This document shows, piece after piece, positions 5,432 through 22,352 of a DNA stretch of 64,000 bases. The translations under genes were made by a program, and so were the position numbers. How positions within the stretch are numbered: the first letter of the stretch is position 1; each line of letters starts with the position of its first letter. The notes under the pieces are model-generated. The model saw only the letters and a list, made by a program, of their open reading frames with translations, did not search any database and was not told the DNA's origin. Origin of the DNA: Aurantiacibacter zhengii (lineage in GTDB: Bacteria; Pseudomonadota; Alphaproteobacteria; Sphingomonadales; Sphingomonadaceae). The stretch is taken from NCBI RefSeq assembly GCF_003584125.1, contig NZ_QXFL01000002.1:620001-684000 (forward strand), written 5' to 3'.

Positions 5432-5451
5432 GGTCCCACCCAAAAGGGACA
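5432..5451. promoter_or_regulatory. Regulon dyad, copy A
   Basis: GGTCCC-N8-GGGACA lies midway between the divergent P450 (start 5368) and cupin (start 5518) genes, 63 bp and 66 bp from the two start codons. It is one of six copies of the same 20-bp inverted repeat in this cluster. On the P450 side a TAGTCA hexamer begins 21 nt beyond the dyad, a plausible -10. Confidence 0.65.
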
Positions 5452-5517
5452 GCCTTTGCGCCGCCGAACTGCTTTGTGACGCCATTAGGATTCCTAATCT
5501 TGAGATGAGGCTGAGGA

Positions 5518-6045
5518 ATGAGTGAATTTAAGCCAAATATGATTGATGCCGTGCCAGCGAACGCGCAAAGTTGGCGTCGAGTCGTCACGGGCGAGAAGAT
5601 TGGCCGCTCTTTGGTTTCAATAGACGATGGTGAATGTCCGTTCCAAATGTCGGTTGAGGGCGCCGAATCCATCGTGGTCACAGATTTGTGGCGCACAGGA
5701 GTCGAGCTAGGCTTCGCGCCAGATGGCCCGGAAATGTGCTCTAAACCCCTGGTATTTGGACCGCCCGAAGGCGGCACCGTGGCGCAGATGCTCGAATGGC
5801 CTCCTGACACACAATTGTTTGGCACTAAAGATCCCGCTGTAGCAAAGAATGTAACGACGCACGCGACTGCCACGATCGACTATGTGCACATCGTCTCGGG
5901 CGAAATCTACGTCATGCTGGACGATGACGAGACCCTACTCAGCCCCGGTGATACGTTGGTTCAAAGGGGCACCCGCCACGGTTGGAGCAACCGTGGCGAA
6001 AAGCCCTGCATCATGTTTGTCGTGATGGTATCGACAAGCTCTTAG
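5518..6045 (+). CDS. single-domain cupin protein (175 aa)
   Basis: The C-terminal half is a cupin_2 barrel: THATATIDYVHIVSGEIYVMLDD gives the first metal-binding motif region, and LSPGDTLVQRGTRHGWSN the second, with its terminal His. The N-terminal half (about residues 1-100) has no motif I recognise. Such cupins act as small dioxygenases, isomerases or ligand sensors. It is transcribed away from the P450 gene across dyad A and converges on the LuxR-type gene, which fits a pathway enzyme of the same regulon; the chemistry is unknown. Confidence 0.75.
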   Translation: MSEFKPNMIDAVPANAQSWRRVVTGEKIGRSLVSIDDGECPFQMSVEGAESIVVTDLWRTGVELGFAPDGPEMCSKPLVFGPPEGGTVAQMLEWPPDTQLFGTKDPAVAKNVTTHATATIDYVHIVSGEIYVMLDDDETLLSPGDTLVQRGTRHGWSNRGEKPCIMFVVMVSTSS

Positions 6046-6098
6046 GCCCAGAAGCGAAGGCTGCCCCTAGCTGTGTTGTTTATGCCCCGTAAGTAATG

Positions 6099-6905
6099 TC
6101 AGGCCGCGCATAAACTGGGTGGTTGCTCAAAATACCAAAGCATTAGCTCACGCTGACTGGCGATTTCGAGATGCTGGTAAGCGCGCTTGCGATAGGTCAT
6201 CACGCTTTCCTTGCCGATGCCGAGATCCGCAGCAATTTCTCGCGATGAGAAGCCGAACAGAATCCTCGCGCATACTTCTGCCTCACGGCGTGAGAGGAGT
6301 TGCATCGCGTGAATATTCTCCTCGATTTTGGCAAGCGAAGCGAGAGCATTGAAACCATCAAACCGAGCGGAAATTAGTCCGTGGTGCCGCGCAACCAGGG
6401 ACACAAGCAGATTCGCAAAGCCCGTCAGATTCTCGACATCGATATCAACCGATTGGTGGTGCAAGCCGCACCGAATCATCCTAATTCCAAACAATGCGCC
6501 CTGCCCTTTACCCACAACCAAGATCGAGTGTCGCGGCGAAATGGGAATGGCCCCGCTTTCATTAGCTCGGGGTAAAGTGAACACTTTTACAAGCGCATCC
6601 TCAGATGCAAACCGTCGGAACTCACGCCGCACATCGTACGTCGCAAGGCATCCATCAGCAGCGCCTGCGCTTGGTCTGTTGACGGAGCTGTTAATCCGCA
6701 TCCCGTTTGCGATCTTTTGGAACTCATAACCTTCTTCTTGAAAGATCTCATACTGCTCGGCCTTAGCAACATGCGCTAGAAACGTCATAAGCGCGTCCTC
6801 GAATTGAGGGCGGCCAATGACTTCGACTAGCCTTGGTAGAGCGCACTTCGCTCGATGACTCTCGCCTGTCTCGTTCGCCGTAATTTCAACAAATGCCGAA
6901 GCCAT
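6099..6905 (-). CDS. LuxR-type helix-turn-helix transcriptional regulator
   Basis: The C-terminal 60 residues are a LuxR/FixJ DNA-binding domain: LLSRREAEVCARILFGFSSREIAADLGIGKESVMTYRKRAYQHL. The N-terminal 200 residues show neither a CheY receiver nor a clear autoinducer domain and may sense a metabolite. It is the best local candidate to bind the six 20-bp dyads, because LuxR-type boxes are typically 20-bp inverted repeats that overlap the -35 region. Its own upstream region carries no such dyad but has 13-bp tandem repeats and a different palindrome. It is divergent from the MarR gene. Confidence 0.85.
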   Translation of the reverse strand: MASAFVEITANETGESHRAKCALPRLVEVIGRPQFEDALMTFLAHVAKAEQYEIFQEEGYEFQKIANGMRINSSVNRPSAGAADGCLATYDVRREFRRFASEDALVKVFTLPRANESGAIPISPRHSILVVGKGQGALFGIRMIRCGLHHQSVDIDVENLTGFANLLVSLVARHHGLISARFDGFNALASLAKIEENIHAMQLLSRREAEVCARILFGFSSREIAADLGIGKESVMTYRKRAYQHLEIASQRELMLWYFEQPPSLCAA

Positions 6906-6920
6906 CTCTCGCTCTCCCAG

Positions 6921-6957
6921 TTCGTCCGATCGGTTCGTCCGATCGGTTCGTTCGACC
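6921..6957. repeat. 13-bp tandem repeat upstream of the LuxR-type gene
   Basis: TTCGTCCGATCGG occurs twice exactly (6921-6933, 6934-6946), followed by a partial third copy (6947-6957). The array starts 16 bp upstream of the LuxR-type start codon, so it overlaps that gene's leader or promoter and could be an operator or a slippage-prone tract. Confidence 0.7.
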
Positions 6958-6968
6958 TTATGGAAGAT

Positions 6969-7155: not shown

Positions 7156-7743
7156 ATGAAAGCGTCAAATGGCGGGAAAATTTCCGCCCGCGGAAAAGAA
7201 ATGGTGACATCAGAAGGTGCTGCAACAAGGCCTGTGAAGCACGATCCACATCCGCGCCTCTACCAATTCTCGCCGGAGCATTCTCTACCTCATGCGTTTA
7301 GCGTAATCGCCAACCGTGTCAGTCACATGCTGCAGGGAATGTATGGTGAATTGTTCGGAATAACAGTTGCTGACTGGCGGATAATTGCCATCTTGGGATC
7401 TAATCATCCGCTGTCGGCAAAGGCGCTTGCTGAATTGACAGCGATGGACCAGGTAAGCGTAAGTCGTGCGATCGATCATCTGACCAACCAGAAGCTCGTC
7501 CTACGCGATATTGACCATACCGACAGGCGACGAGTCGCTCTCAGGCTCAGCAGGAGAGGCCAGGAAATCTTCGATAAGGTAATGCCTTTGCTCCATGCAT
7601 GTGAGAACCGTTTGATCGACGAACTATCGGAAGCCGATGCGGTTACACTTCGCAGGATTATGGGCCTTTTGGTCGATCGCTCCGCAAGGCTGTTTAGCGA
7701 CAATACCGATTGGCGTCCAATTCTGAATGATGATCAATTATAA
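7156..7743 (+). CDS. MarR-family transcriptional regulator
   Basis: A 195-residue winged-helix protein with a MarR core from about residue 60: GITVADWRIIAILGSNHPLSAKALAELTAMDQVSVSRAIDHLTNQKLVLRDIDHTDRRRVALRLSRRG. The recognition helix and the DxxDRR wing are intact. It carries an N-terminal extension of about 45 residues, so a later start (for example codon 16) is possible. MarR proteins usually repress catabolic or efflux genes until a phenolic or CoA-type ligand binds. The palindrome at 6969-6989 is its most likely operator. Confidence 0.9.
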   Translation: MKASNGGKISARGKEMVTSEGAATRPVKHDPHPRLYQFSPEHSLPHAFSVIANRVSHMLQGMYGELFGITVADWRIIAILGSNHPLSAKALAELTAMDQVSVSRAIDHLTNQKLVLRDIDHTDRRRVALRLSRRGQEIFDKVMPLLHACENRLIDELSEADAVTLRRIMGLLVDRSARLFSDNTDWRPILNDDQL

Positions 7744-7894: not shown

Positions 7895-8697
7895 CTGATT
7901 CAGAGTCATTTCGGATCATGGGAGATACGCGACGGCGTTGTTCTGGCTTTCGGACGAAGCGTGGGCGGCGATCGAACCGCATCTGCCACGCAATTAACCG
8001 GGTGCGCGACGGGTCGATGACCGGCGGGTGATATCGGGCATTCTGCACGTGCTGAAGGTCGGCTGTCGCTGGTGCGATTGTCCGGTCGACAATGGACCAT
8101 CGACGAAGATCTACAACCCTTTCAATTGCTGCCGGCGGGGCTTCTGGTTGAAGTTGCTCGATGTGCTTATCGATGCCGGTGCCGTGACATGGCAGCACGG
8201 CTATCGACAGCACCTATATCAAGGCGCAGCGCTCGGCGTTTGGCGGAAAAGGGGACGCCGCGATCAGACGATCGGCCGCTCGCGCGGAGGCTGGACGACC
8301 AAGGTCCACGCGCTCACCGACGTCATCGGCCGCCCCTACTCGCTGATGCTGATGCTCGGCAACATCAGCGACGTGACGGCAGCACCCGCGCTTCTCGAAC
8401 ACGCCGGGCGTATGCGCTACCTGCTCGGCGACAAGGGCTATGATGCTGATCGGTTACGCCGCTCGCTACGCGAAGCAGGCGCCATACCTGTCATACCCAG
8501 CCGCAGGAATCGCAAACGCACTGTGCGCTACCACAAGCAGCGACACCGCGAGCGTCATCTCGTCGAAAACGCCTTCTGTCGCCTCAAGGACTTCCGCCGC
8601 GTCGCCACTCGCTACGATAAGCTCGCAGCCAAATTCCTCTCGGCGTGGCGCTCGCCATAGCGGTCGCATTCTGGCTATGGATGAGTCTGAACCCTAG
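7895..8697 (+). mobile_element. Decayed IS5-family element
   Basis: About 0.8 kb containing a broken IS5-type transposase. Candidate imperfect terminal repeats are TTCAGAGTCAT (7899-7909) and, inverted, ATGAGTCTGAA (8681-8691). The element lies between the MarR gene and dyad B, so it may have displaced the original promoter context of the downstream operon. The ends are estimates. Confidence 0.6.
7918..8697 (+). pseudogene. IS5-family transposase, disrupted
   Basis: Three lesions are visible. There is an in-frame TAA after HLPRN at about 7996. A double frame change in the middle leaves the catalytic segment DSTYIKAQRSAFGGKG in another frame. A one-base loss near 8649 turns the expected LSAVALAIAVAFWL tail into LSAWRSP. 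The second Asp (GDKGYDAD) and the final Glu (LVENAFCRLKDFRR) are still readable. No functional transposase can be made without several corrections. Confidence 0.8.
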
Positions 8698-8733: not shown

Positions 8734-8753
8734 TGTCCCCAAGTCGCGGGACA
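8734..8753. promoter_or_regulatory. Regulon dyad, copy B
   Basis: TGTCCC-N8-GGGACA, with perfect half-sites, lies 135 bp before the preferred GTG start of the SDR gene (90 bp before an alternative ATG at 8844) and 37 bp after the IS5 remnant. It would control the SDR to flavoprotein operon. This copy lacks the TA-starting hexamer seen 20-21 nt beyond most other copies. Confidence 0.6.
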
Positions 8754-8888
8754 GACTTTGTCACAATCCTGATGTCAGTTCACCAAGATGACGAATGACA
8801 TTTTTAAAGACCCGACAGTGATCTGTTCCAGACGATTTACCCAATGGGTTATATGCAGGACGTATTCTCCGGGTTTCAAGGAGTCCCA

Positions 8889-9647
8889 GTGACGCATTCC
8901 ACAAACAAGCGGCAGGGCGAGGTTGCGCTGGTCACTGGTGCAACGACAGGCATTGGTGAGGCTGTTGCTTATGCGCTGGCCGATTTGGGCCTATCTGTCA
9001 TCGTGAGCGGGCGCCGCATAGATCGGCTAGAAGCGGTGGCCGAAACGATCCGAACCAAAGGCGTAGACGCTCATGTCATGGCATGTGACATCGCAGATGC
9101 GTCGGCATTGGAAGCGATGTTTGCCGATATTCGCAGCAAAGTTGGTAAACTGGACATACTCGTCAACAATGCCGGTATGGGATATCAAAGTGATATCGGT
9201 GATTTTGAAACCGCCGAGTTAAGCCTTGCGCTTGCCGTAAACGTTACCGGCGCAGCAATTTGTATCCGTGAATCAATTGCATTGATGGAGCATCGACCAG
9301 GCACGGCAATCATAACAGTTTCATCTATGGCCGCTCACAGGGTTCCTCCCGGCGGCTTTGGCATCTACTCTGCGACCAAACATGCATTGCGCGCAATTAT
9401 GGAGGCTTTGCGGATGGAATGCGTCAAGCTTTCTAGCCCGACAAAGATCGCCAGCATTTCCCCGGGCACGGTCGCTACCGAGTTTCACAAACTCTTCGCG
9501 CGAAGCGACAAGGATCCTACCGAAAAGCTGCCTTTCGAACGCCTGACGCCCGAGGATGTCGCACGTGCGGTGACTTTTGTTCTCGAAGCTCCGGCCCACG
9601 TTCAACTAAACGAGATAATGATCCGACCGATCGGCCAATTGGGGTGA
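8889..9647 (+). CDS. short-chain dehydrogenase/reductase
   Basis: A classical SDR: cofactor motif TGATTGIG near the N-terminus, NNAGMGY, catalytic Ser (TVSSMAAHR) and YSATK with the catalytic Tyr/Lys, then the SPGTVATEF segment. I prefer GTG 8889 because AAGGAG lies five bases upstream; ATG 8844 in the same frame has no ribosome site and would add 15 residues unlike SDR starts. The family oxidises secondary alcohols or reduces ketones with NAD(P). As first gene of an operon with P450s nearby, oxidation of a P450-made alcohol to a ketone is the simplest role. Confidence 0.88.
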   Translation: MTHSTNKRQGEVALVTGATTGIGEAVAYALADLGLSVIVSGRRIDRLEAVAETIRTKGVDAHVMACDIADASALEAMFADIRSKVGKLDILVNNAGMGYQSDIGDFETAELSLALAVNVTGAAICIRESIALMEHRPGTAIITVSSMAAHRVPPGGFGIYSATKHALRAIMEALRMECVKLSSPTKIASISPGTVATEFHKLFARSDKDPTEKLPFERLTPEDVARAVTFVLEAPAHVQLNEIMIRPIGQLG

Positions 9648-9654
9648 AGAGTTG

Positions 9655-11208
9655 ATGGAGTACACAGTTGCAAATATCGTCCGCGAGCGTTTTAGGACGG
9701 ATCCGGACCGATTGGCGATCAGTTCGGAGGACAGGGATATTGACTGGACAGGCATGTACTTGGCTGCACGTCGGGTTGCCAGCGCGCTCACCAACTCCGG
9801 GATAAACCCGCAGGATCGCGTTTCCTTTATCGATCGCAATTGCATCGAATATTTCGAGTTCATTTTCGGCTGCGCGCTTGCCAATGTGATCCCCGTACCC
9901 ATAAACTGGCGGCTCACTCCGACCGAAATCAAAGAAACCCTGCTGGACGCCAACTCAAAACTGCTGATCGCTGGGGAAGAGTTCTGGCCAGCGATTGAAT
10001 CCATAGAGGGTAGCATTTCCGAGCAGTTGCAAGTGATCGCTATTGGCGAGCATGATCGCTGGTCAGATTACACCGAGTGGTGCGGGACGGGCGACCCTGC
10101 CGACCCGATGCTGCCCGTTAAACCCGGCGATATAGCGATACATTTCTACTCCAGCGGAACGACTGGAAAACCGAAAGGCATTTTGTGGAGTGCTGCCAAT
10201 GCGGAATATCTGCTTCGCGATACTAGCAGGCATTATGGCATCCTTCGCGATGACGTAAGCTTGCTGATAATGCCGCTTTATCATAGCGGCGGAACAGGCT
10301 GGGCGCTTTGCGGCATGATTAATGGTTGCCTCTCTGTTTGTCTGCGGCAGTTTTCAGCACGGCCAGTGCTTGAACTGATTGCGGACAGGGGCATTACGGT
10401 CGCCATGTTCGTCCCTGCAATGCTGGCACAATTGTGTGCGCAGACAGACGCAGAAAGCTTCACAGGCTCAATGCGGCAAGTAAATTATACTGGCTCCCCC
10501 ATATCGGAACATGATCTGGTCGCGTCGATGAAGGTCTTTGATGCAGAATTCATCCAGAATTACGGGTTGGCTGAAACAACTGGCGGCTTTGCTCAACTTG
10601 ATGCTTGCGACCATGATCCTGGAGGTCCGCGGGCCTATCTGTTACGCTCTGTCGGTAAGGCCTATCCGGGCATAGAACTTAAGGTTGTTGATCCATTGAC
10701 CGGAAAGGATTGCGGACCCAACGAGTTTGGGGAGCTATGGACGCGGTCCGGACAAAACATGCCGGGATATTATAACTTGCCTGAATTAACCGCAGCAACG
10801 ATCACCCCAGATGGCTGGCTGAAAACCGGCGATGGCGGGCACATTGACGAAGATGGATATATCTTCCTTACCGACCGGCTGAAAGATGTCATTATTTCCG
10901 GCGGTGAGAACATCTATCCCACCGAAGTCGAAAGCCTGATCACCTCGCACCCCGCGGTGGCCGAGGTGGCGGTGATCGGTGTGCCAAGTGATCGCTGGGG
11001 CGAAACCGTTACAGCCATCATCGTTTTGCATAGTGGTGCCCACATTACAGAAGGCGATGTAATCAGCTTTTGCAAAGCAGATTTAGCGAGCTTCAAATGT
11101 CCCAAATCGGTCAAGTTCACCGATGCCCTGCCGCGCAATCCGACCGGCAAATTACTCAAGGCCGAATTGCGCAATATGTATCAGGAAATACCAACCAGCC
11201 CGGCTTAA
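9655..11208 (+). CDS. acyl-CoA synthetase (AMP-forming)
   Basis: A 517-residue ANL-superfamily ligase. The P-loop-like motif is HFYSSGTTGKPKG, followed by YGLAETTGG, the hinge region LKTGDGGHIDEDGYIFLTDR, GGENIYPTEVE and the catalytic Lys in NPTGKLLK. It activates a carboxylic acid with ATP and CoA. It starts eight bases after the SDR stop and is followed by an enoyl-CoA hydratase, so it probably primes a ring-opened acid for beta-oxidation-like steps. The chain length or ring substrate is not predictable here. Confidence 0.9.
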   Translation: MEYTVANIVRERFRTDPDRLAISSEDRDIDWTGMYLAARRVASALTNSGINPQDRVSFIDRNCIEYFEFIFGCALANVIPVPINWRLTPTEIKETLLDANSKLLIAGEEFWPAIESIEGSISEQLQVIAIGEHDRWSDYTEWCGTGDPADPMLPVKPGDIAIHFYSSGTTGKPKGILWSAANAEYLLRDTSRHYGILRDDVSLLIMPLYHSGGTGWALCGMINGCLSVCLRQFSARPVLELIADRGITVAMFVPAMLAQLCAQTDAESFTGSMRQVNYTGSPISEHDLVASMKVFDAEFIQNYGLAETTGGFAQLDACDHDPGGPRAYLLRSVGKAYPGIELKVVDPLTGKDCGPNEFGELWTRSGQNMPGYYNLPELTAATITPDGWLKTGDGGHIDEDGYIFLTDRLKDVIISGGENIYPTEVESLITSHPAVAEVAVIGVPSDRWGETVTAIIVLHSGAHITEGDVISFCKADLASFKCPKSVKFTDALPRNPTGKLLKAELRNMYQEIPTSPA

Positions 11209-11262: not shown

Positions 11263-12033
11263 ATGAGTAATGATGGTGCAATCACTGTCAAAAAAGACGG
11301 TGCCATCACAACGATTACTTACGATCGGCAGGAGAAGCTCAACGCGCTCACAGCCAAAATGTCGCGCGAGCTATTGGCAGCCATTGCGGACCTGGATGGC
11401 GACGATACCGCATCGGTCGGCATCCTTACAGGTGCCGGTCGCGCCTTTTCAGTTGGGGGCGATCTGGCTTTGGAGGAGACATTTACTGCACACACTTTCC
11501 GGCTAGAACTGGAAATGTTCGCCGAAACCGTGATGGCGATTCTTTCGTGCAGCAAGCCTATCATCTGCAAGATGAACGGTCATGCGGTCGGCTGGGGAGC
11601 AACCATGGCGCTATTTTGCGATATCATTATCGCCAGCAACAAGGCCAAAATCGGTGACCCCCACGTTAATGTCGGTCTATCCACCGGCGACGGAGCTTCG
11701 GTGATCTGGCCGCAATTGGCTGGCTATCCCAGAGCCAAGCAGTATTTGTTGACCGGCGAGCTGATGGGGGCTGTGAAGGCGGAGCGATGGGGTCTCGTCA
11801 ATGAAGTTTGCCGGCCTGAACAGCTTGATGATCGCGTGCTTGAGATTGCGCAGCTGATTGCTGAAAAGCCGCGCCTTTCTGTCGCCATGACCAAGGCGTC
11901 TGTGAATATTGCCCTCAAGCAGGCAGTACGATCAGCAATGGACAGTTACATCACTTATGAATGCACCACTCAGCAGCACCCCGATCACTTAATCGCCGTG
12001 CGCAGATTTATGAACACGCGCAAGAGCCGGTAG
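11263..12033 (+). CDS. enoyl-CoA hydratase/isomerase
   Basis: A 256-residue crotonase-fold protein. The CoA-binding stretch is EKLNALTAKM, and the oxyanion-hole segments are GAGRAFSVGGDL and MNGHAVGWGATMALFCDIIIAS. The start ATG follows a GGAGA site. Position 130-140 reads DPHVNVGLSTGDG, so one of the usual catalytic glutamates is not obvious, which leaves room for an isomerase, a hydrolase or a ring-cleaving crotonase. It is co-directional with the acyl-CoA synthetase 54 bp upstream. Confidence 0.88.
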   Translation: MSNDGAITVKKDGAITTITYDRQEKLNALTAKMSRELLAAIADLDGDDTASVGILTGAGRAFSVGGDLALEETFTAHTFRLELEMFAETVMAILSCSKPIICKMNGHAVGWGATMALFCDIIIASNKAKIGDPHVNVGLSTGDGASVIWPQLAGYPRAKQYLLTGELMGAVKAERWGLVNEVCRPEQLDDRVLEIAQLIAEKPRLSVAMTKASVNIALKQAVRSAMDSYITYECTTQQHPDHLIAVRRFMNTRKSR

Positions 12034-12068: not shown

Positions 12069-12836
12069 ATGAACACCAGAACGCGGCAGACTATTTTCAC
12101 CGAGGAACACGGTTCAGGCAGCGAGATATTATTACTAATCCATGGTCTCGGTACCAATGGAGCGACCTGGGATCCTGTGGTGAAAATCGCGCGTCGCGAA
12201 TGGGCTGGCAAGATTGTTGTGCCGGACCTGCGCGGTCATGGCCGATCCGGCCATTTTGATACCTATTCCTACGGCGCAATGGCAGCCGACCTTGGTGCCG
12301 TAGTGCAAAATGCCAGCAGCGTCAGCATAATTGGCCATTCGCTTGGTGGGGCGCTTGGCGCAATGTTGGCAAGCGGTTGGTTCGGCCCGCAAATCGCCCG
12401 TGTATTGGCGCTTTCTGTAAAGGTTTCTTGGGCGCCCGAAGAAATCGCTATGGCGCACGAAATTGCCAAGGGCAGTTCGCGGGTTATGGCGACCCGCGAA
12501 GAAGCCATAGAGCGCTATTTCAAGATGTCAGGCCTATTAGGGCACGCTGCGCAAATGCAAAGATCGGGTGAAATCGGCGTTAAAGAATACAATGGCGGCT
12601 TCCGATTAGCCGCCGATCAAGCCATCTTTGGCAGCGCTGCTATGGGTGTGCCGGAGATATTGAAGCTGCCTCGTTGTCCGGTGGTGCTTGCAACTGGCGA
12701 AAATGATCCGCTGGCACCGCCGGCTGATTTTTCAGCATCGGGCATTAACGTGCACACAATTTCCGGCGCAGGCCATCAGACACCTATCGAAGCTGCCAGC
12801 GAGACCTGGGCGATATTTTCGGGCATCACGGTTTGA
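12069..12836 (+). CDS. alpha/beta hydrolase (255 aa)
   Basis: A compact alpha/beta hydrolase: oxyanion strand IHGLGTNGATWDPV, nucleophile elbow GHSLGGALG (Ser about residue 96), and C-terminal His in GAGHQTPIEA. The length is typical of esterases, lactonases and meta-cleavage hydrolases. It lies between the enoyl-CoA hydratase and a KstD-like flavoprotein in one run, so it could open a lactone or a 1,3-diketone made by the flavoenzymes. It is unrelated in layout to the larger hydrolase at 2846. Confidence 0.85.
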   Translation: MNTRTRQTIFTEEHGSGSEILLLIHGLGTNGATWDPVVKIARREWAGKIVVPDLRGHGRSGHFDTYSYGAMAADLGAVVQNASSVSIIGHSLGGALGAMLASGWFGPQIARVLALSVKVSWAPEEIAMAHEIAKGSSRVMATREEAIERYFKMSGLLGHAAQMQRSGEIGVKEYNGGFRLAADQAIFGSAAMGVPEILKLPRCPVVLATGENDPLAPPADFSASGINVHTISGAGHQTPIEAASETWAIFSGITV

Positions 12837-12855
12837 AACTAAGGCGGGCCTGCAA

Positions 12856-14571
12856 ATGACGGAGCAGGTTCCTCCAGCTGCCGACCTTGTTGTCGTTGGC
12901 TCTGGCGCGGCCGGTTTAACCGCAGCAATCACTGCAGCATCGCACGGGGCAACAGTTGTTGTGCTGGAAAAATCACGATGGATCGGTGGCACAAGTGCAA
13001 TTTCCGGCGGCGGGGTTTGGATTCCCGGAAGTGAAGTTAAGGGCAGCACCAATGGAGAGAGCGCCCAGAATGCCCGACAAGATCAGACTGCTCTGGCCTA
13101 TTTGCAATCAGTGATCGGGCCCGATTGCGACACTCGCGCGATAGAGGAATTTCTCGATCAGGGCCCGAAAGCCATCCGCTTTCTTCAAGAGCATACCGCA
13201 CTGAAGTTTGCTGCCAGAGAGTTTTCTCCAGACTATTACTCCGAACTGGCCGATGCCACCGATACCAGCAGGGCGATTGACAGTGTCGAACTGGATGGCC
13301 GATCCTTGGGTTGTGACCTTGCTTTACTGCGTCCACCTGGCCTCGAAGCAACGATTTTGGGCGGGATGGCCGTGTCAGGGACAGATATCGCTCGGTTAAG
13401 AGCATTGTCTCGCTCTGCTTCTGCTTTCGTGCATTCAGCCAAGTTGGTGCTTCGTTTCGCGTTTCAGCGCCTTTTGCATGGGCGGGATACAAGGCTCGTT
13501 CTGGGGCAGGCGCTGATTGGCCGAATGCTGAAATCAGCGCGGGCTCTAAACGTTTCTATTATCACCGATGCTGACGTTGTCGATCTGGACACAACCGAAG
13601 GGGTCATCTGCGGTGTGACAGCGCTGATTGGTGGCGAGGCATATCGCATCCGTGCCCGGCGCGGCGTAGTGCTTGCTGCGGGTGGTTTTGCAATGGATCA
13701 AAAAACGCTTAGTAAATGGCTCCCCGATATAGCTTTGCGCCATGCTGTGGGAGCTACCGAGAACACCGGCGATGGCCTGAAAATGGGATTGGCAGCAGGG
13801 GGCACGCAAGATTTTTCGACGGATCGCGAAACCGCCTATGGCGTGCCTGTCTCACATTGGCAGTCCAGAGAGGGTACTGTAATTACATTCCCGCATTTCG
13901 TAACAGACCGTGCGAAACCGGGGGTCATTGCCGTAAGTCCTGCTGGCACGCGCTTCGTGAACGAGGCCGATTCCTACCACGAATTCGTCCGCGCAATGTT
14001 GGGAGCGACGCGCGGCCCAATGTCCCATGCCTACCTGATCTGTGACCGAAAAGCCATGAACCATTATGGCCTTGGCCTTGCTCGTCCCTGGCCATTTCCC
14101 CGTCGCCACCTGTTGCGCGATGGTTATATTCTCATGGCGAATACGATAGAGGAATTGGCTATGAGGATAAACGTCGATCCGGTGGCGCTCAAACATACAA
14201 TTGAGCGATACAATAGCCACGCCAAAAAGGGAGAAGATAAGGATTTTGGGAAAGGAAGGAGCAGCTACAACCGTTCTGTCGGAGATCCAGATGTACGCCC
14301 AAATCCGTGCATCGCCCCTCTGCAAGTATCACCATTCTTTGCCTTAAAGCTCTATCCAGGCAATCTTGGGACTAGCCGAGGATTAAAGACAGATCTCTCC
14401 GCATGCGTTCTAGATTCTTACGGCGAGCCTATCGAAGGGCTCTATGCTGCCGGAAATGATGCCGATGCCATTTTTCGCGGAAATTACCCTGGGCCAGGGA
14501 CTTCGCTCGGCCTTGCAATCACGGGCGGATACATCGCCGGCCTGCATGCATCCGGTCGCGCCGGCACCTGA
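12856..14571 (+). CDS. FAD-dependent dehydrogenase, KstD/fumarate-reductase type
   Basis: The N-terminal dinucleotide fold is DLVVVGSGAAGLTAAITAASHGATVVVLEK, followed by GGTSAISGGGVWIPG. The C-terminus has YAAGNDADAIFRGNYPGPGTSLGLAITGGYIAG, very like 3-ketosteroid delta-1-dehydrogenases. The start ATG 12856 gives 571 residues; the frame is open further upstream but that stretch overlaps the hydrolase gene. The family introduces or reduces a C=C bond next to a ring ketone using FAD. With a second paralogue at 20633, the pathway likely desaturates a cyclic ketone. It is the last gene of the run started at dyad B. Confidence 0.85.
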   Translation: MTEQVPPAADLVVVGSGAAGLTAAITAASHGATVVVLEKSRWIGGTSAISGGGVWIPGSEVKGSTNGESAQNARQDQTALAYLQSVIGPDCDTRAIEEFLDQGPKAIRFLQEHTALKFAAREFSPDYYSELADATDTSRAIDSVELDGRSLGCDLALLRPPGLEATILGGMAVSGTDIARLRALSRSASAFVHSAKLVLRFAFQRLLHGRDTRLVLGQALIGRMLKSARALNVSIITDADVVDLDTTEGVICGVTALIGGEAYRIRARRGVVLAAGGFAMDQKTLSKWLPDIALRHAVGATENTGDGLKMGLAAGGTQDFSTDRETAYGVPVSHWQSREGTVITFPHFVTDRAKPGVIAVSPAGTRFVNEADSYHEFVRAMLGATRGPMSHAYLICDRKAMNHYGLGLARPWPFPRRHLLRDGYILMANTIEELAMRINVDPVALKHTIERYNSHAKKGEDKDFGKGRSSYNRSVGDPDVRPNPCIAPLQVSPFFALKLYPGNLGTSRGLKTDLSACVLDSYGEPIEGLYAAGNDADAIFRGNYPGPGTSLGLAITGGYIAGLHASGRAGT

Positions 14572-14584
14572 GGTAATAGTCGAT

Positions 14585-14604
14585 TGTCCCTGACAATGGG
14601 GACG
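14585..14604. promoter_or_regulatory. Regulon dyad, copy C
   Basis: TGTCCCTGACAATGGGGACG: half-sites TGTCCC and GGGACG around 8 bp. It lies 91 bp upstream of the CYP101-like P450 start and 13 bp after the preceding stop. A TATCTG hexamer starts 21 nt beyond the dyad, in the position expected for a -10. Confidence 0.65.
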
Positions 14605-15940: not shown

Positions 15941-16052
15941 AGGCGTCTTTCTCAAACTTTGCTGATTGTCGTGCGATCTCGGTTTGCAGTTAAGCTGGCA
16001 AGCCGGGATCGCATTCTAAGGGCACCTACGGGGAGCCAACAGGAGTGTGCGA

Positions 16053-16370
16053 ATGATTACGATTCAAGTTTTGACGCGCGACGGTGCGGATGTTTCAGTT
16101 CAGGGTGAGGAAGGTACATCACTTATGGAAGCCCTGCGTGATGGCGGCATCGACGAATTGCTCGCCCAATGCGGGGGGCAATGTTCGTGCGCGACGTGCC
16201 ATGTCGTTGTCGATCCAGCTTTTGCCAGCAATCTTCCATCTATGTCTGATGACGAAGACGACCTGCTGGACAGCTCAGACCACCGTCAGCCAACGTCTCG
16301 TCTCTCCTGCCAGATCCCCGTCACCCCGGAACTCAATGGAATTCGCGTGGCGGTTGCGGCCGAGGGATAA
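16053..16370 (+). CDS. putidaredoxin-type [2Fe-2S] ferredoxin
   Basis: 105 residues with the adrenodoxin/putidaredoxin spacing C-x5-C-x2-C ([10 protein letters not shown]) and a distal fourth Cys in RLSCQI. An extra Cys lies inside the first loop. ATG 16053 is preferred: AGGAG ends seven bases before it, whereas upstream GTG codons sit too close to that site. The acidic DDEDDLLD helix matches the partner-binding face of P450 ferredoxins. It would carry electrons from the reductase encoded at 25745 to the P450s. It follows the first CYP101-like gene in the same direction. Confidence 0.93.
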
Positions 16371-16387: not shown

Positions 16388-17134
16388 ATGACTCGATCGA
16401 TGTCGATCAACCAATCAGACGAAAAACTGATTCTTCATTATGTGCGCACGTCTAATGGGCAAAAAATTGCTATCCTGCTTGAAGAAGCCGGCATCGACTA
16501 CGAAACGGTAGAGTATGACATTTTTGCTGGCGATCACCTCATCCCGGCCTTCCGTGAGATAAACCCCAATCAGCGGCTACCGGCTCTTGTTGATCCTGCA
16601 CCGGTCGGTGGTGGTGGTCAGGCACTTGTCCTCGCGGAAACCGGCGCAATGCTGCTCTACCTTTCCGAGAAATCCGGCAAATTTCTGTCGCCAGACATCT
16701 ATCGAAAGATGGAAGCCGTGCAATGGCTAGCATGGCAAATCTCTGGCCTTGGCCCAATGTTGGGTCAAGCCTATCATTTTGCCCGATACGCACCTGGCGG
16801 CCAGAAGTATGCGGTCGATCGCTATGCACGCGAAGCACGCCGTTTGCTGTCGGTGATGGAAGCCCGGCTAGCGGATCGGAAATATCTAGCGGTCGAGTAT
16901 TCCATCGCGGATATGGCCTGTTGGCCCTGGCTACAGAATGTCGCAAATATTGGAATTGACCGCGCTGAGTATCCGCAGGTGCAGCAATGGTTCGAAACAA
17001 TCAGGTCACGCCCAGCCGTGCAGCATGTGCTAAATGCAGATGAGCTGGCTGTACCGTCTGGTTACACACAGAAGCGAATGCAATTGACACCAAATCAGTG
17101 GTCAAACCTATTTGGCCGCACCATCGCCACTTGA
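16388..17134 (+). CDS. glutathione S-transferase (Nu-class-like)
   Basis: A 248-residue GST. The N-terminal thioredoxin-like domain contains the TSNGQKIAILLEE segment typical of the YfcG/YghU (Nu) class, which lacks the classical Tyr/Ser/Cys. It continues with NPNQRLPALVDP and ETGAMLLYLSEK, and then an all-helical C-terminal domain with IADMACWPW. It lies 17 bp after the ferredoxin and is likely co-transcribed. Nu-class enzymes act as disulfide-bond reductases or peroxidases; in catabolic clusters GSTs also open epoxides or isomerise. Its 3' end overlaps the opposing MFS gene by 27 bp. Confidence 0.87.
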   Translation: MTRSMSINQSDEKLILHYVRTSNGQKIAILLEEAGIDYETVEYDIFAGDHLIPAFREINPNQRLPALVDPAPVGGGGQALVLAETGAMLLYLSEKSGKFLSPDIYRKMEAVQWLAWQISGLGPMLGQAYHFARYAPGGQKYAVDRYAREARRLLSVMEARLADRKYLAVEYSIADMACWPWLQNVANIGIDRAEYPQVQQWFETIRSRPAVQHVLNADELAVPSGYTQKRMQLTPNQWSNLFGRTIAT

Positions 17135-18382
17135 TATACGGGGTTTGTGCTCAAACACCTGAGGATAGCGGCCCATAAATAACAGAAGCACCGCGCCCAG
17201 TGTATAAAGCATCGCGGCTGCAAAGAAGGCAATGTCGTAGCTGCCGAAATGGTCATGAGCGGCCGCGAATGCAAAAGGTGCAAAGCCAGCCGCCAGCGCC
17301 ATTGCGGCATAGGTCACTGCAAAAATGGTCGCATAGTGACGTAACCCGAAATAGCGCGCAGTGAGAAACGAGAGAAAGTCCAATTCTGCACCAGTCGCAA
17401 CGCCGATCAGGATGACGGCCAGAGTGACAAGTGCATAGCTGTAATCACCTGGCAAGATGACACAGGCCAAAACTGGCAGCATCGTTACAAAAGCGGCAAC
17501 CCCGGGTGCCCAAAGCCGATCAATGACAAGCCCGACAACCAGTCGGCCAAGAATGATCGATACGCCCAGGACGCTCTGTAGGTTTGCAGATTGTTGCGCC
17601 GACAATCCACGGTCGGAAAGCGACGGAATGAGGTTCGTAATGATCCCCGCTTGCGCAAGGTAGATACAGGTGATCGCCGCGAACAGGAGCCAGAAGCGAT
17701 ATCCCTTAAGCGCCTGCTTGACTGTAAAGCCCGTCAGCGATGAAGGCACTTCGGGCGATGATGGTCCAACACCTTGCACGTTGGATTTGTTAATTGGCAT
17801 CCGGAAAAATGCGAGCGCAAGGGGAAGCGCCAAAGCGACAGGTACTGTTGCCAAACCAACAAGGCTGGCAGTCACACCGTAATTGCCGATTAACCATGTT
17901 GTGAGCTGCGGGGCAAGAATTGCGCAAAGCCCTGTCCCGGTTAAAGCAATACCCAGCGCAAGCCCCAGCTGACGGTCAAAACTCAAAGTAATTCCGCGCG
18001 TCCAACTAACCGGATTTGAACCGCTGCCGAGGGTCGCCATGAGGATAAAAGCCAAGTAGAAAATTGGCAACGATCCAGCTGCGGATGCTGCCAGAAGAAA
18101 GGAAACGCTTACGCCTGTAAGGCCAAAAAGCGCGACCACTCTCGCTCCCCAGCGATCAACTGCGCGCCCCACCAGCGGCGACGCCAGCGCCCCTGCACCG
18201 ATGCTTAGCAGAATTGCGGTCTGGACGTCGGCCCTGCTCCATCCATAAGCTTCGGTCAGTGGTTTAGTGAGCGCGCCGATAGCATAAAATGGAAGCGCCA
18301 TGGCACTGCAGCCGATTCCCACTGATGCTGCGAGCAGGAGTGGGGCATTCTTTGCAACTTCATTCTCACGGACTTTCATCAT
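17108..18382 (-). CDS. MFS transporter (monocarboxylate/oxalate-formate antiporter-like)
   Basis: About 424 residues with 12 predicted hydrophobic segments and two six-helix halves split by a polar loop near residue 205. Segment LSIGAGALASPLVGRAVDRWGARVV holds the loop 2-3 MFS motif. I start at ATG 18382 (MMKVREN); an in-frame TTG at 18397 is possible. It would import the growth substrate or an acid intermediate across the inner membrane. It lies 91 bp downstream of the VOC gene on the same strand, so the pair is likely driven from dyad D. Confidence 0.85.
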   Translation of the reverse strand: MMKVRENEVAKNAPLLLAASVGIGCSAMALPFYAIGALTKPLTEAYGWSRADVQTAILLSIGAGALASPLVGRAVDRWGARVVALFGLTGVSVSFLLAASAAGSLPIFYLAFILMATLGSGSNPVSWTRGITLSFDRQLGLALGIALTGTGLCAILAPQLTTWLIGNYGVTASLVGLATVPVALALPLALAFFRMPINKSNVQGVGPSSPEVPSSLTGFTVKQALKGYRFWLLFAAITCIYLAQAGIITNLIPSLSDRGLSAQQSANLQSVLGVSIILGRLVVGLVIDRLWAPGVAAFVTMLPVLACVILPGDYSYALVTLAVILIGVATGAELDFLSFLTARYFGLRHYATIFAVTYAAMALAAGFAPFAFAAAHDHFGSYDIAFFAAAMLYTLGAVLLLFMGRYPQVFEHKPRISSGDGAAK

Positions 18383-18473
18383 GCGCGACCACGCCAACCT
18401 CTCATTCTGCAGCTATGGGCGCGACCAAGCGCTCCATGTGTAGTCTGCTGAGATCGCGGAGACTTCAAACTCA

Positions 18474-19064
18474 TCAAAGAACACTTCTTGCGTGGCGCCG
18501 GCTACGGATGAGGGCCAACAGTGCTTCTCCTACATCTTCGCCCTTCTCGTCGGCATCCTTCTTTGCGTCGCACCAGGCTTTGAGATCAACTTCGGCCTTA
18601 TCACGGTGATTGTTCCAATGGGGGTCTAGCGGGGTCGTGATTTCCAACCGAATGTCATTCGGATCTTGAAAATAAATACTGTATATCAATCCGCTGTGAT
18701 CGGTAGGTCCGACAAAGGGGATATCATTTTCCGTGAGCCATTTCGCCCAACGATCAACTTCGTCGCGGTCCTCTGCCTGCAAAGCGATATGGTCAAAAAT
18801 ATCATAGGCTGGATGCGAAACCTCAGATCGGGCGGGCAAACCCGGAGCTTCAAAAAATGCCAAAGTCGAACCGTCGCGCATTCTAAAAAAGATATGGAAG
18901 TAGGCAAAGGCGTCACCGGTGGAGGGTATCTGATCATCGAACACCGTGCTGACCAAGTCCATACCCATGATCTCGGTATAAAAGTTGGCAGTCGCCTCAA
19001 CATTGTGGGTAACCCAGGCTGCATGATTGAGCATCTGAGGAGTTAATTTGGGCGGTGTCGGCAT
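18474..19064 (-). CDS. VOC-superfamily protein (glyoxalase/extradiol dioxygenase fold)
   Basis: 196 residues with two beta-alpha-beta-beta-beta modules. Candidate metal ligands are His in LNHAAWVTHNV, His in FDHIALQAED and Glu in IRLEITTPL, with YFQDPNDIRLE as the classic final strand. ATG 19064 is chosen because GGGAG lies just upstream; the frame stays open further back, but into the IS3 end. Family reactions include extradiol ring cleavage, glyoxalase and epimerase chemistry. The conserved metal triad favours an active enzyme. It is the first gene after dyad D, followed by the MFS carrier. Confidence 0.8.
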   Translation of the reverse strand: MPTPPKLTPQMLNHAAWVTHNVEATANFYTEIMGMDLVSTVFDDQIPSTGDAFAYFHIFFRMRDGSTLAFFEAPGLPARSEVSHPAYDIFDHIALQAEDRDEVDRWAKWLTENDIPFVGPTDHSGLIYSIYFQDPNDIRLEITTPLDPHWNNHRDKAEVDLKAWCDAKKDADEKGEDVGEALLALIRSRRHARSVL

Positions 19065-19131: not shown

Positions 19132-19151
19132 TGTCCCCGATCAACGGGACT
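19132..19151. promoter_or_regulatory. Regulon dyad, copy D
   Basis: On the plus strand: TGTCCC-N8-GGGACT. It lies 67 bp upstream of the minus-strand VOC gene. Read on that strand, a TAGTGC hexamer begins 21 nt beyond it. The IS3 left end is only 16 bp away, and copy E lies just past the IS right end, so D and E once shared one divergent promoter region. Confidence 0.65.
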
Positions 19152-19243: not shown

Positions 19244-19510
19244 ATGAAGGCATTGAAGTTCACGGACGCGCAGAAGGCGTTTGTCATCAAGCAGGGTGAA
19301 GAAGGGACGCCGGTGGCGGAGATATGCCGCAAGGCGGGGATCAGCCAGGCTACCTACTTCAACTGGAAAAAGAAGTACGCGGGGTTGATGCCATCGGAGA
19401 TGCGGCGGCTGCGTGATCTGGAAGACGAGAACGGTCGGCTGAAGAAGATCGTGGCGGACCTGACGCTTGATCGCGAGATGTTGCAGGATGTTATCAAACG
19501 AAAGCTCTGA
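19244..19510 (+). CDS. IS3 transposase OrfA
   Basis: An 88-residue helix-turn-helix protein (FTDAQKAFVIKQGEEGTPVAEICRKAGISQATYFNWKKKYAG) followed by a leucine-zipper-like coiled coil (LRDLEDENGRLKKIVADLTLD). This is the standard DNA-binding half of IS3-type transposases. Its stop lies inside the region where the OrfB frame, one base back, is already open, which fits synthesis of an OrfAB fusion by -1 frameshifting. Confidence 0.92.
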   Translation: MKALKFTDAQKAFVIKQGEEGTPVAEICRKAGISQATYFNWKKKYAGLMPSEMRRLRDLEDENGRLKKIVADLTLDREMLQDVIKRKL

Positions 19511-19560
19511 GGCCGGATCGGAAGCGCGAGATTATCGACGCGGTACGGCAGGACTGGCAG

Positions 19561-20391
19561 GTGACGATCCGCAGGGCGTGCGCAGCACTGCACTTCGATC
19601 GATCCACCTACCACTACCAGTCCCGCCGTACCGATCCGGCCTTTCTGAAGAAGCGCATCAAGGAGATCTGCGAGACGCATGTCCGCTATGGCTATCGGCG
19701 GGTCTATTACATCCTTCGCCGCGATGGCTGGGTTGTGAACATGAAGAAGGTTTACCGGCTTTACAGGGAGTTGGGCCTGCAGCTGCGCAACAAAACACCC
19801 AAGCGGCGAGTGAAGGCGAAGCTGCGGGAAGATCGTGCGCCGGCGATCAGGCCGAACGATGTCTGGGCGATGGACTTTGTGCACGACCAGCTGGCGACTG
19901 GGCGCAAGCTGCGCATCCTGACGGTGGTCGACACGTTCTCGCGGCTATCGCCGGTGATCGATCCCCGGTTCAGCTATCGTGGCGAGAACGTGGTTGCCAC
20001 GCTCGAACAGGCATGCAGGAAGATCGGCTATCCGAAGGTGATCAGGGTGGACAACGGTAGCGAGTTTATCTCTCGGGACATGGATCTGTGGGCTTACCAG
20101 CGGGGTGTCACGCTGGACTTCTCCCGCCCTGGCAAGCCCACAGACAATGCGTTTATCGAGGCGTTCAACAGCAAGCTGCGCAGCGAATGCCTGAACGCGC
20201 ACTGGTTCCTGTCGCTGCAAGATGCTTGCGAAAAGCTGGAGGCCTGGCGTAGACACTACAACGAAGAACGACCGCACAGCGCGATCGGGAATATCCCCCC
20301 GATCATGCTGGCAAACTCAGCCGGTGAAACCAGCCCGCCGGATCTGGGAAAGGCGGAAAACTCCAGACCCAAGTGGTCCGAGGTTGGGTAG
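19561..20391 (+). CDS. IS3 transposase OrfB (DDE integrase core)
   Basis: An rve-fold catalytic subunit. The catalytic triad is visible as Asp in DVWAMDFVHD, Asp in VIRVDNGSEFIS and Glu in DNAFIEAFNSKLRSECLN. The N-terminal HTH_21 region is YGYRRVYYILRRDGW. The homologous frame extends upstream to about 19500 (LRPDRKREIIDAVRQDW) and is normally reached by frameshift from OrfA, so the given GTG is only the first simple start. No disabling mutation is seen. The stop codon lies within the first copy of the duplicated right end. Confidence 0.9.
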   Translation: MTIRRACAALHFDRSTYHYQSRRTDPAFLKKRIKEICETHVRYGYRRVYYILRRDGWVVNMKKVYRLYRELGLQLRNKTPKRRVKAKLREDRAPAIRPNDVWAMDFVHDQLATGRKLRILTVVDTFSRLSPVIDPRFSYRGENVVATLEQACRKIGYPKVIRVDNGSEFISRDMDLWAYQRGVTLDFSRPGKPTDNAFIEAFNSKLRSECLNAHWFLSLQDACEKLEAWRRHYNEERPHSAIGNIPPIMLANSAGETSPPDLGKAENSRPKWSEVG

Positions 20392-20449
20392 CAGTGCAGA
20401 AAGGCGGAAAACTCTAGACCCAAGTGGTCCGACGTTGGGTAGCAGTGCA
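20348..20449. repeat. 51-bp tandem duplication at the IS3 right end
   Basis: Two adjacent 51-bp units (20348-20398 and 20399-20449) differ at two positions. Each contains the inner part of the right terminal repeat (GGCGGAAAACTC...GTGGTCCGA) and the outer GGGTAGCA end. This duplicates the transposase-binding end of the element. Confidence 0.85.
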
Positions 20450-20510
20450 TTTTGCTTTCAAAGCAGATCACAGCCTGAGGGCACTTTAGGTGGCATGTAC
20501 CCTTGCCGGT

Positions 20511-20530
20511 TGTCACGGCCTATGGGGACA
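20511..20530. promoter_or_regulatory. Regulon dyad, copy E
   Basis: TGTCAC-N8-GGGACA, one mismatch in the left half-site. It lies 102 bp upstream of the flavoprotein start. A TAGCTC hexamer begins exactly 20 nt beyond the dyad. Confidence 0.6.
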
Positions 20531-20632
20531 GCCTCTAGAGCTGACACCGCTAGCTCTCAAAGGATCAGAGACCGCAAGAGCCCGGTCGACTGCACCTTAT
20601 TGTGAGAAAAGTCGAAAGTTCGGAGAGAACGC

Positions 20633-22264
20633 ATGCGCAAGGATGAGAACTACGATTTTGTCAGCGTCGGCTCCGGCGCTGGAGGTCTTGCCGCAGCCAT
20701 TGTCGCTGCTCAAAATGGTGCCAAAGCTCTAGTGGTAGAAAAAGACACCAAGGTCGGAGGCGTGACGGCGCTGACAGGTGGACAGATATGGATCGCGCCA
20801 AACCCATACCAACATGATCGACAGGTCAAAGACAGCTTCGAGGATGCGCTTGCATATATAGATTTCCTTGCTGCAGGAATGGGCAATGAAGAAAATCGAA
20901 AGGCCTATGTCACACGCGGCGGCGAAGCTTTGTTATATCTTCGCGATCTTGGACTGCAGCTTTGCCCCATCCCCGACTACGCCGATTATTACTATCCCGA
21001 AGCACCCGGCTCCAAAGCCTATGGGCGATACCTTGAACCTATGCCGTTCCCGGCATCACAGCTGGGCGACTGGCAGGACCGCATAGTCGTGGGGCAAGGT
21101 GCCATGACCACCCAGCATGGCGGAGCAAGCCTCACAAATGCCGAACTCGCCGGTGCCGCATCCGATCCGGAGGCACTGCAAACCAAAAAGGCCGCGCGTT
21201 TGGCCAGCAACGAACGGTGCATGGGATCGGGCCTAATCGCAAATCTTGTCGACATGGCGCTTCGTACATCGGTGGATATTAGAACGGATTCGCCAGCTAT
21301 ACGCTTGCTCGGCGATACGCGTATCGAGGGACTCGTGGTTGATCATGAGGGTCAGGAACGCACGATCAAGACCAGCAATGTGCTGCTCGCAACGGGCGCC
21401 TATGACTGGTCACCGGAACTGGTCGAGACGCACGAATTTGTGAAAAACATGTTCAGCCTGACCCCGCCAACCATTACCGGCGATCATTTCCGGCTCGCAG
21501 CGCAATTTCGTGCCATGACCGCCACGACTTTGCCGCAGGGATGTTCACGCCATGTCGGAATCAATATCCCAGGCGAGGAATGGGGCGGCAAACCGTTCTA
21601 CCGCATGATGATCATGGGGTTGCCGCACTGCATAATGGTCAACAAGCAGGGCCGCCGGTTTGGCGATGAATCCTTCTTCCACACCTACAGCAGCAATGCC
21701 TATGAATTTGACGGTCACCGTCAGACCTTCCCCAACTGGCCCGCATGGCTCTTGTTCGATCAGAATTATAAGGACAAATATCCAATCGGCCCGATCGCGC
21801 CAGGCGATCCACTGCCCGAAGGAATGGGCGTTATCGCCGATAGTATAGAGGAACTTGCGCAGGCAACCGGTATCGATATTGCGGGGCTTTGCGAGACAGT
21901 TGCCCGCTTCAACAAAAATGCCGACAAAGGAGTGGATCCTGAGTTTAATCGAGGGACCAAATTGTGGAGCCATAGCTGGGGCGACATCCGCCAGCTTAAC
22001 CCCAACCTTGGCGCCCTCGACAAGGCTCCATATTACGCCATTTCGCTGGAAAGGGTCGGCACTGGCCTCGCATCGGCCGGCCTCAAGACAGATGCAACTG
22101 GCGCGGTGATCGGGATGAATGGCGATCGTGTTCCAGGCCTCTATGCGGTGGGCAATTCAGCGGCCCGCACCGAGATGGGCTGCGGCTACAATAGCGGGAT
22201 GGCAATCGGCCGAAGCCTCGTTTTCGGCTATATTGCGGCGATGGCCGCCAGCTCGCTCAATTGA
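20633..22264 (+). CDS. FAD-dependent dehydrogenase, KstD/fumarate-reductase type (second copy)
   Basis: 543 residues. The FAD fold is YDFVSVGSGAGGLAAAIVAAQNGAKALVVEK; then GGVTALTGGQIWIAPNP; the C-terminal flavin domain ends LYAVGNSAARTEMGCGYNSGMAIGRSLVFGYIAA. It is a distant paralogue of the gene at 12856: the central substrate-cap region differs and it lacks the SYPGPG-like loop of true ketosteroid dehydrogenases. AGAGAACGC precedes the ATG. It likely reduces or introduces a C=C bond conjugated to a carbonyl. It is separated from the second CYP101-like gene by dyad F. Confidence 0.85.
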   Translation: MRKDENYDFVSVGSGAGGLAAAIVAAQNGAKALVVEKDTKVGGVTALTGGQIWIAPNPYQHDRQVKDSFEDALAYIDFLAAGMGNEENRKAYVTRGGEALLYLRDLGLQLCPIPDYADYYYPEAPGSKAYGRYLEPMPFPASQLGDWQDRIVVGQGAMTTQHGGASLTNAELAGAASDPEALQTKKAARLASNERCMGSGLIANLVDMALRTSVDIRTDSPAIRLLGDTRIEGLVVDHEGQERTIKTSNVLLATGAYDWSPELVETHEFVKNMFSLTPPTITGDHFRLAAQFRAMTATTLPQGCSRHVGINIPGEEWGGKPFYRMMIMGLPHCIMVNKQGRRFGDESFFHTYSSNAYEFDGHRQTFPNWPAWLLFDQNYKDKYPIGPIAPGDPLPEGMGVIADSIEELAQATGIDIAGLCETVARFNKNADKGVDPEFNRGTKLWSHSWGDIRQLNPNLGALDKAPYYAISLERVGTGLASAGLKTDATGAVIGMNGDRVPGLYAVGNSAARTEMGCGYNSGMAIGRSLVFGYIAAMAASSLN

Positions 22265-22332
22265 GCGAACAGTCCGTTATGCCTCACTCGCAAAAGGTTC
22301 TATTTTGTTGGAGTACCCATATGCGAATTGCC

Positions 22333-22352
22333 TGTCCCTATAAGACGGGACA
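22333..22352. promoter_or_regulatory. Regulon dyad, copy F
   Basis: TGTCCCTATAAGACGGGACA, perfect half-sites. A consensus-like TAAAAT (22373-22378) starts 20 nt beyond it. If that is the -10, the dyad centre falls close to -42.5, the classic position for LuxR-type activation overlapping the -35. The P450 start codon is 166 bp downstream. Confidence 0.7.

Follow-up and report, generated by a model that had tools for sequence, protein, structure and literature searches.

A 64,000-nucleotide stretch of the Aurantiacibacter zhengii genome (contig NZ_QXFL01000002.1, here C12; the window, which starts at C12:620001) carries near its left end a cluster of putative catabolic genes, including three cytochrome P450 genes, a ferredoxin, flavoproteins and enzymes of coenzyme A (CoA) chemistry, together with a gene for a LuxR-type regulator at 6099-6905 and six copies of a 20-bp dyad, TGTCCC-N8-GGGACA (Table 1). 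The first-pass annotation had read these six copies as the mark of one putative regulon. Their coordinates proved exact, with two perfect copies (8734 and 22333) and four with one mismatch (5432, 14585, 19132 and 20511), and all of them are intergenic and upstream of cluster genes, as had been proposed. The spacer bases vary among the six. The claim that the window held no further copy stood at up to one mismatch and failed at two, since weaker matches occur at 15916 and 56846. At up to two mismatches, eight matches were found versus 1.9 expected, a number reached by none of 100 shuffled sequences, and at up to three mismatches the count (24 versus 25.4 expected) was at chance level; therefore, the signal is carried by the sites with at most one mismatch, and those with two or three, mostly at chance level, were discarded.

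The scan of the whole genome (3.80 Mb in 29 contigs) revealed 13 places with at most one mismatch, versus 11 for a backwards control, and therefore the genome total says little and the clustering of the sites is what counts. Ten of the 13 were placed within 30 kb (C12:612668-642352), four of them just upstream of the window (C12:612668, 612794, 616650 and 618492, corresponding to window positions -7332, -7206, -3350 and -1508), and two others were found on contig C25 (2120 and 5718), around two FAD_binding_2 genes, so that the set extends beyond the window by these six sites. Twelve of the 13 sites fall in two catabolic loci, as would be expected of an operator common to several gene sets and rare elsewhere, and neither a random density nor a mainly coding location was observed. 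The anagram control CCCTGT-N8-ACAGGG occurred at six places over five contigs, none of them in the 30-kb stretch. Moreover, a scoring matrix built from 63 spacer-8 sites, all from other organisms, was run over five stretches of this genome, the window and four others (119.6 kb; 119,600 bases), and its top 12 scores (15.6-23.5) were exactly the 12 own sites, the next score being 12.6. In 60 random 64-kb sequences, the maximum score averaged 9.5 and reached 16.4 at the highest. The dyad at 5432, with the lowest of the 12 own scores (15.6), falls below this random top value and is therefore the least certain of them if taken alone. The thirteenth genome site, on contig C24, was placed within an open reading frame with a score of 10.2 and was taken as chance, and the weak match at 15916 scored 9.1, inside the random range.

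Where relatives of the LuxR-type protein occur, the dyad tends to be found as well. Of 298 genomes of the same family, 26 carry the exact dyad, and six, A. zhengii included, encode a relative of the 6099-6905 protein (E ≤ 1e-15); four of these six regulator-bearing genomes had exact dyads, eight in total, always on the same contig as the regulator and 0.1 to 23 kb from it. At up to one mismatch, all eight sites of genome G017 lie inside 37 kb around the regulator, 11 of the 17 in G174 are on the 47.7-kb contig that carries it, and four of the seven in G162 are within 34 kb, while G075 and G220 each have a site within about 3 kb of their regulator; whole-genome clustering supports the link in three of the five family relatives. 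The six genomes of the same genus without a detected regulator had two to six sites, a number not above control in five of them.

This association, which extends across classes of Pseudomonadota, was also evident in 48 loci that the regulator alignment alone retrieved from the named genome collection. Spacer 8 accounted for 74 TGTCCC dyads and spacer 7 for 30, versus 0-6 at each of the spacers 2-6 and 9-15; no spacer other than 8 and, among relatives, 7 stands out. When 60 anagrams were counted at spacer 8 in these loci, the best other one reached 22, the mean of all 60 being 4.8. Of the 48 loci, 41 carried one or more dyads of spacer 7 or 8, and the next of 59 anagram half-sites was present in 23 (median 6). 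One of the 48, a Bacillota record with a single N7 site (L105), is probably a chance match. Five loci (L075, L084, L092, L098 and L101, with L098 approximately a copy of L092) showed three sites each at up to one mismatch, all of spacer 7. The regulator's own start carried a site in 11 of 36 loci. Seven of the 48 loci were dyad-free (L062, on a short contig, L090, L091, L094, L099, L103 and L106); the recognition helix reads RKLAY in L090 and L103, versus RKRAY in most relatives. Seven distant plasmid loci (L108 and L110-L115, six of them hand-picked from the best 30 of 32 records), most with a different recognition helix, held two single sites in all.

Another LuxR-type regulator was found beside dyads of a longer form. 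Locus L056 (genome G296, contig C32) encodes at 11070-11843 a response regulator with a LuxR helix-turn-helix and a receiver domain, and exact dyads of the TGTCCCCAAT type are placed at its start (11787 and 11943) and about 7 kb off (19196). Judged by its domains and its three longer sites, this is a different regulator whose half-site is similar, and it was rejected as a family member and excluded from the site counts.

The placement of the sites was analyzed in 57 loci (window 1-30000, L015, L016, L049-L053, L055, L060-L104 and L107-L109; left out were L054 and L059, copies of L095 and L049, as well as L056-L058, L105 and L106), in which only copies with identical 20-bp flanks were removed and both open frames and gene starts were assigned automatically. 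Open-frame interiors, which cover 76% of positions, held 34 of the 129 sites, and 76 of the 95 non-interior sites had a gene start within 300 bp, at a median distance of 54. For the 52 sites that had readable flanks and gene starts on a single side, a -10-like hexamer peaked at offset +22, counted from the final base of the dyad, with a mean score of -1.3, versus -4.8 to -8.1 at other offsets and -4.2 for the highest maximum in 500 shuffles. The peak was present in both the N7 and the N8 class, and N8 sites showed none on the upstream side; after removal of the near copies L102, L104 and L107 (122 sites, 33 interior), it was still at +22 (47 sites). With the -10 element at -12 to -7, the dyad centre is therefore near -43. 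The -35 slot reads CAGACN, of which GAC is the only part matching TTGACA, and GAC followed the proximal half-site in 14 of the 52 oriented sites, versus four on the mirror side. In the A. zhengii genome, TA was observed at +21 to +23 on eight of 13 gene-ward sides, versus a background of 8%; these sides were chosen by hand, and C25:5718 was omitted for having no clear gene. Lux-type boxes are 20 bp long, with a class II position near -43, and a fixed distance to -10 and a poor -35 are usual for activators. An activator overlapping -35 is favoured by this analysis, because the dyad-to--10 geometry resembles that of class II lux-type boxes and of the CrbR repeat described below.

It seems likely, from these comparisons, that TGTCCC-N8-GGGACA serves as operator for a transcriptional activator of the one-component kind, namely the LuxR-type protein 6099-6905. 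Through its GerE helix-turn-helix, this protein would bind both half-sites as a dimer, an effector, probably the pathway substrate or an intermediate, would be sensed by the N-terminal domain, and RNA polymerase would be recruited from a site centred near -43, whose promoter-proximal half-site would overlap the poor -35. In this way, one regulon would be switched on, comprising the three P450s, the ferredoxin, flavoprotein dehydrogenases, CoA ligase, hydratase, thiolase and CoA-transferases, as well as the HMGL-like and LeuCD-like enzymes, the TonB receptor and the MFS transporter.

Several observations weigh against this proposal. The genome total hardly exceeds that of the backwards control, and no regulator was detected in 22 of the 26 family genomes that carry an exact dyad, so that single dyads arise by chance; in G075 and G220, the whole-genome counts are near control (5 versus 4 and 3 versus 7, respectively). 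Locus L110 keeps the TYRKR helix and yet has no site, which counts against a simple helix-to-dyad rule, and the same is true of L091 and L099. The regulator tree gave no support for a joint evolution of spacer length (7 or 8) and regulator, the N7 state needing six changes versus a shuffled mean of 7.5, with 41 of 500 shuffles as low. The regulator gene of A. zhengii has no site with up to one mismatch in front of it, and five of the 13 gene-ward sides in this genome have no TA where it would be expected. N7 sites show a lesser peak at +22 on the upstream side too, perhaps from uncalled divergent genes. Finally, the TM-scores of the predicted regulator structure to LuxR-type receptors are modest, at about 0.2-0.4.

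The same protein could instead act as a repressor covering the -35 region and released by a pathway inducer, since the proximal half-site lies over the -35 slot, a position that suits repressors too. The single dyad-to--10 distance of +22 in both spacer classes and the poor -35 slot are both activator-like, and repression is considered unlikely. In its favour, a LuxR-like repressor of a Comamonas steroid dehydrogenase gene is mentioned in PMC8700777.

The domain content of the regulator, viewed with the criteria that PMC4288048 gives for quorum-sensing receptors, bears on a further alternative, that of a quorum-sensing LuxR solo answering acyl-homoserine lactones (AHLs) and tying catabolism to population signals. 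The GerE/LuxR C-terminal helix-turn-helix (PF00196) was matched in the window protein (E 2.4e-10) and in all 40 aligned relatives, which represent 40 of about 50 available regulators. The predicted structure (pLDDT 85) had TraR, SdiA and QscR among its best structural matches (Foldseek probability 1.00, though with low TM-scores), and the 20-bp dyad near -43 resembles lux boxes. Against an AHL receptor, the autoinducer-binding domain Autoind_bind (PF03472) was found in one of the 40 relatives, at E 0.17, and neither this domain nor the Response_reg receiver (PF00072) was among the six families matched by the window protein at E ≤ 10. LuxI (PF00765), a partner that LuxR solos do not require, was not found in the A. 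zhengii genome or in G174, and the LuxI genes of G017 and G162 are far from the regulator. In a six-member alignment, the W..DP segment, which may correspond to the AHL-binding Asp-Pro of TraR, was present in four other members and missing from the window protein and its nearest relative. With no Autoind_bind match, no LuxI and no W..DP segment, the ligand is therefore probably not an AHL. The initial LuxR-type reading of the gene, which comparison singled out, stands, with the correction that by its sequence the protein is no AHL receptor; a quorum-sensing LuxR solo is given little credence.

Another co-inherited regulator might bind the dyad, such as the MarR-family protein 7156-7743, whose gene is adjacent to that of the LuxR-type protein in A. 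zhengii and in L049, and nearby in others. MarR relatives were found in nine of 46 loci, versus the dyad in 41 of 48, and three distant LuxR-type relatives with changed recognition helices, beside VOC and alpha/beta hydrolase genes, have no dyad, so that a MarR binder appears very improbable and the earlier proposal of one regulon with the LuxR-type gene as candidate regulator is supported. The origin of the six dyads by chance or from a mobile repeat, which the insertion sequence (IS) elements within the cluster might suggest, was rejected as next to impossible, given the varying spacer bases, the shuffles, the genome clustering, the spacer and anagram counts and the ranking by the cross-organism matrix, all far from chance.

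Table 1. Dyads and genes of the cluster (window coordinates) with matrix scores and -10-like sequences of the dyads.
Feature	Position	Strand	Remarks
Genes faced by the four sites upstream of the window			TonB receptor; 141-residue frame without Pfam match, then short-chain dehydrogenase; thiolase and two CoA-transferase genes; divergent GMC oxidoreductase / CaiB
HMGL-like (7-738, N-terminus outside window), aconitase-family LeuC-like (735-2141), LeuD-like (2141-2767)	7..2767	+	3' of C12:618492 dyad and CaiB gene
Alpha/beta hydrolase	2846..4024	+	comes after the run headed by CaiB (outside the window); of all neighbours, the one that regulator relatives share most often
Cytochrome P450	4097..5368	-	nearest solved chains include P450 RhF
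Dyad GGTCCC-N8-GGGACA, one mismatch	5432..5451	.	between divergent P450 (4097-5368) and cupin genes, common to both; TA at +22 on P450 side, none on cupin side
Cupin-domain protein	5518..6045	+	
LuxR-type (GerE helix-turn-helix) regulator	6099..6905	-	268 residues; candidate dyad binder from dyad co-occurrence and predicted fold
MarR-family regulator	7156..7743	+	probably not the common binder
Dyad, perfect	8734..8753	+	5' of short-chain dehydrogenase / AMP-ligase / enoyl-CoA hydratase / hydrolase / flavoprotein genes; score 22.2; no TA at +21 to +23
Short-chain dehydrogenase	8844..9647	+	
AMP-binding (acyl-CoA) ligase	9652..11208	+	
Enoyl-CoA hydratase/isomerase family	11263..12033	+	
Alpha/beta hydrolase	12069..12836	+	
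FAD_binding_2 flavoprotein	12688..14571	+	true start probably later than first start codon
Dyad, one mismatch	14585..14604	+	5' of CYP101-like P450, ferredoxin and glutathione S-transferase genes; score 17.8; TATCTG at +22
Cytochrome P450	14696..15940	+	nearest solved chains include CYP101D5, CYP101D1 and P450cam
2Fe-2S ferredoxin	16047..16370	+	
Glutathione S-transferase family	16388..17134	+	
MFS transporter	17108..18397	-	
VOC-family protein	18474..19064	-	start inferred from sequence; first in-frame start codon gives 19253
Dyad, one mismatch	19132..19151	-	5' of VOC and MFS genes; score 16.7; TAGTGC at +22
Dyad, one mismatch	20511..20530	+	5' of ketosteroid-dehydrogenase-like flavoprotein; score 17.0; TAGCTC at +21
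Flavoprotein akin to 3-ketosteroid and 4-oxocyclohexanecarboxylate dehydrogenases	20633..22264	+	under their curated cut-offs
Dyad, perfect	22333..22352	+	5' of third P450; score 19.7; TAAAAT at +21
Cytochrome P450 (third)	22456..23730	+	start may be about 22522

In the context of the presumed targets, the run of genes begun by CaiB upstream of the window enters it as the HMGL-like, LeuC-like, LeuD-like and alpha/beta hydrolase genes; for the last of these, no solved relative was found at E ≤ 0.01. Among 93 of the 94 listed proteins downstream of dyads (those of up to 1000 residues; one TonB receptor was left out), cytochrome P450 was the commonest family (11), followed by LuxR-type regulators (9) and flavin adenine dinucleotide (FAD) enzymes, with VOC (5), CaiB, short-chain dehydrogenases and TRAP-type solute-binding proteins (4 each) as further families. 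Similarly, a census of neighbours in 50 loci (46 of the 48 plus L049-L051 and L053, of which L049 and L050 duplicate L059 or reach beyond it; at least 45% identity) revealed alpha/beta hydrolase in 24, VOC in 19, HMGL-like in 12, CaiB in 11, and LeuC and LeuD in 10 each. The substrate of the cluster would most likely be an alicyclic, terpenoid or steroid-like compound, because of the CYP101-like P450, the dehydrogenase-like flavoproteins and the CoA chemistry. In the plasmid loci L111, L113 and L114 (Neorhizobium, Variovorax and Bosea), distant relatives of the regulator adjoin genes annotated as VOC, alpha/beta hydrolase and FAD enzymes, without the dyad, and this arrangement of genes may predate the operator.

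Mobile elements were also observed at these loci. An IS3-type element with an rve integrase (19183-20449), whose right end is duplicated in tandem (51 bp; 20348-20398 and 20399-20449), is placed between the VOC and flavoprotein promoters and is flanked by the dyads 19132 and 20511, which may once have belonged to one divergent intergenic region, before the insertion. A DDE transposase frame (8028-8660) stops just short of the dyad 8734, and a second likely IS element (24766-25619) was recognized from inverted ends only. On contig C25, the second, unlinked FAD_binding_2 pair (L016, 2212-5515) lies between its two dyads as a satellite of the set, adjoining a transposase-like frame, with an integrase-like frame further on (both named by eye).

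When set beside TraR, SdiA, QscR and the lux-type boxes, the present system is alike in the GerE helix-turn-helix, the 20-bp dyad, its place near -43 and possibly, by a prediction with low TM-scores, the overall fold, and differs in having no Autoind_bind match above noise, no LuxI in the genome, a G+C-rich TGTCCC half-site, and P450 and CoA-ester catabolic genes as targets. The nearest functional relatives found described are TesR/TeiR and the regulator of the pdc progesterone cluster (EGO55_13855, Saro_3594), which, according to the available parts of PMC8700777 and PMC12239570, are known or supposed LuxR-type activators of steroid catabolism in Comamonas and sphingomonads; they are set beside the regulator by description only, and no operator motif for TesR/TeiR or EGO55_13855 was found in those parts. 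Novosphingobium aromaticivorans was absent among the plasmid matches listed (best 30 of 32), the presence of its plasmid in the collection being unchecked. CrbR, the LuxR-family activator of acetate use, recognizes an imperfect inverted repeat (the ACTU motif) at -52 to -36, just before an RpoD promoter (PMC5715377). It resembles the present, proposed activator in its LuxR-type helix-turn-helix and in a repeat just upstream of the promoter, and differs in being a two-component response regulator, whereas the window protein has no Response_reg match, and in its ACTU sequences, such as TACTACCATCGTCGAAT, which are not TGTCCC. The ACTU motif was thus rejected as the same operator, and the GGGGACA matches in the text were cloning primers. 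According to PMC4288048, a survey of sphingomonad LuxR proteins demanded the autoinducer domain, and therefore the present subfamily would have been missed. Neither a TGTCCC operator nor this regulator family was found described in the literature, as covered by titles and abstract openings, with subscription journals mostly outside the coverage.

The dyad is thus probably, on the comparative evidence, the site bound by the regulator, through which a so far undescribed family of catabolic gene sets would be controlled. More tentatively, and with rather less than even confidence, it can be proposed that LuxR-fold one-component metabolite sensors of alpha-, beta- and gammaproteobacteria, which would have left quorum sensing or never been part of it, run P450 catabolic regulons via TGTCCC-N7/8-GGGACA, and that the linked alpha/beta hydrolase and VOC proteins, the commonest partners, would make or remove the effector. 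For P450 catabolic clusters from sphingomonads to Variovorax, Mesorhizobium and roseobacters, the analysis thus supplies a probable operator along with a candidate regulator and the promoter geometry, and the operator can be used to find more members and target genes. The regulator would be a possible biosensor once its ligand is known, and a way is opened to test what LuxR-fold proteins without the signature of an AHL domain sense.

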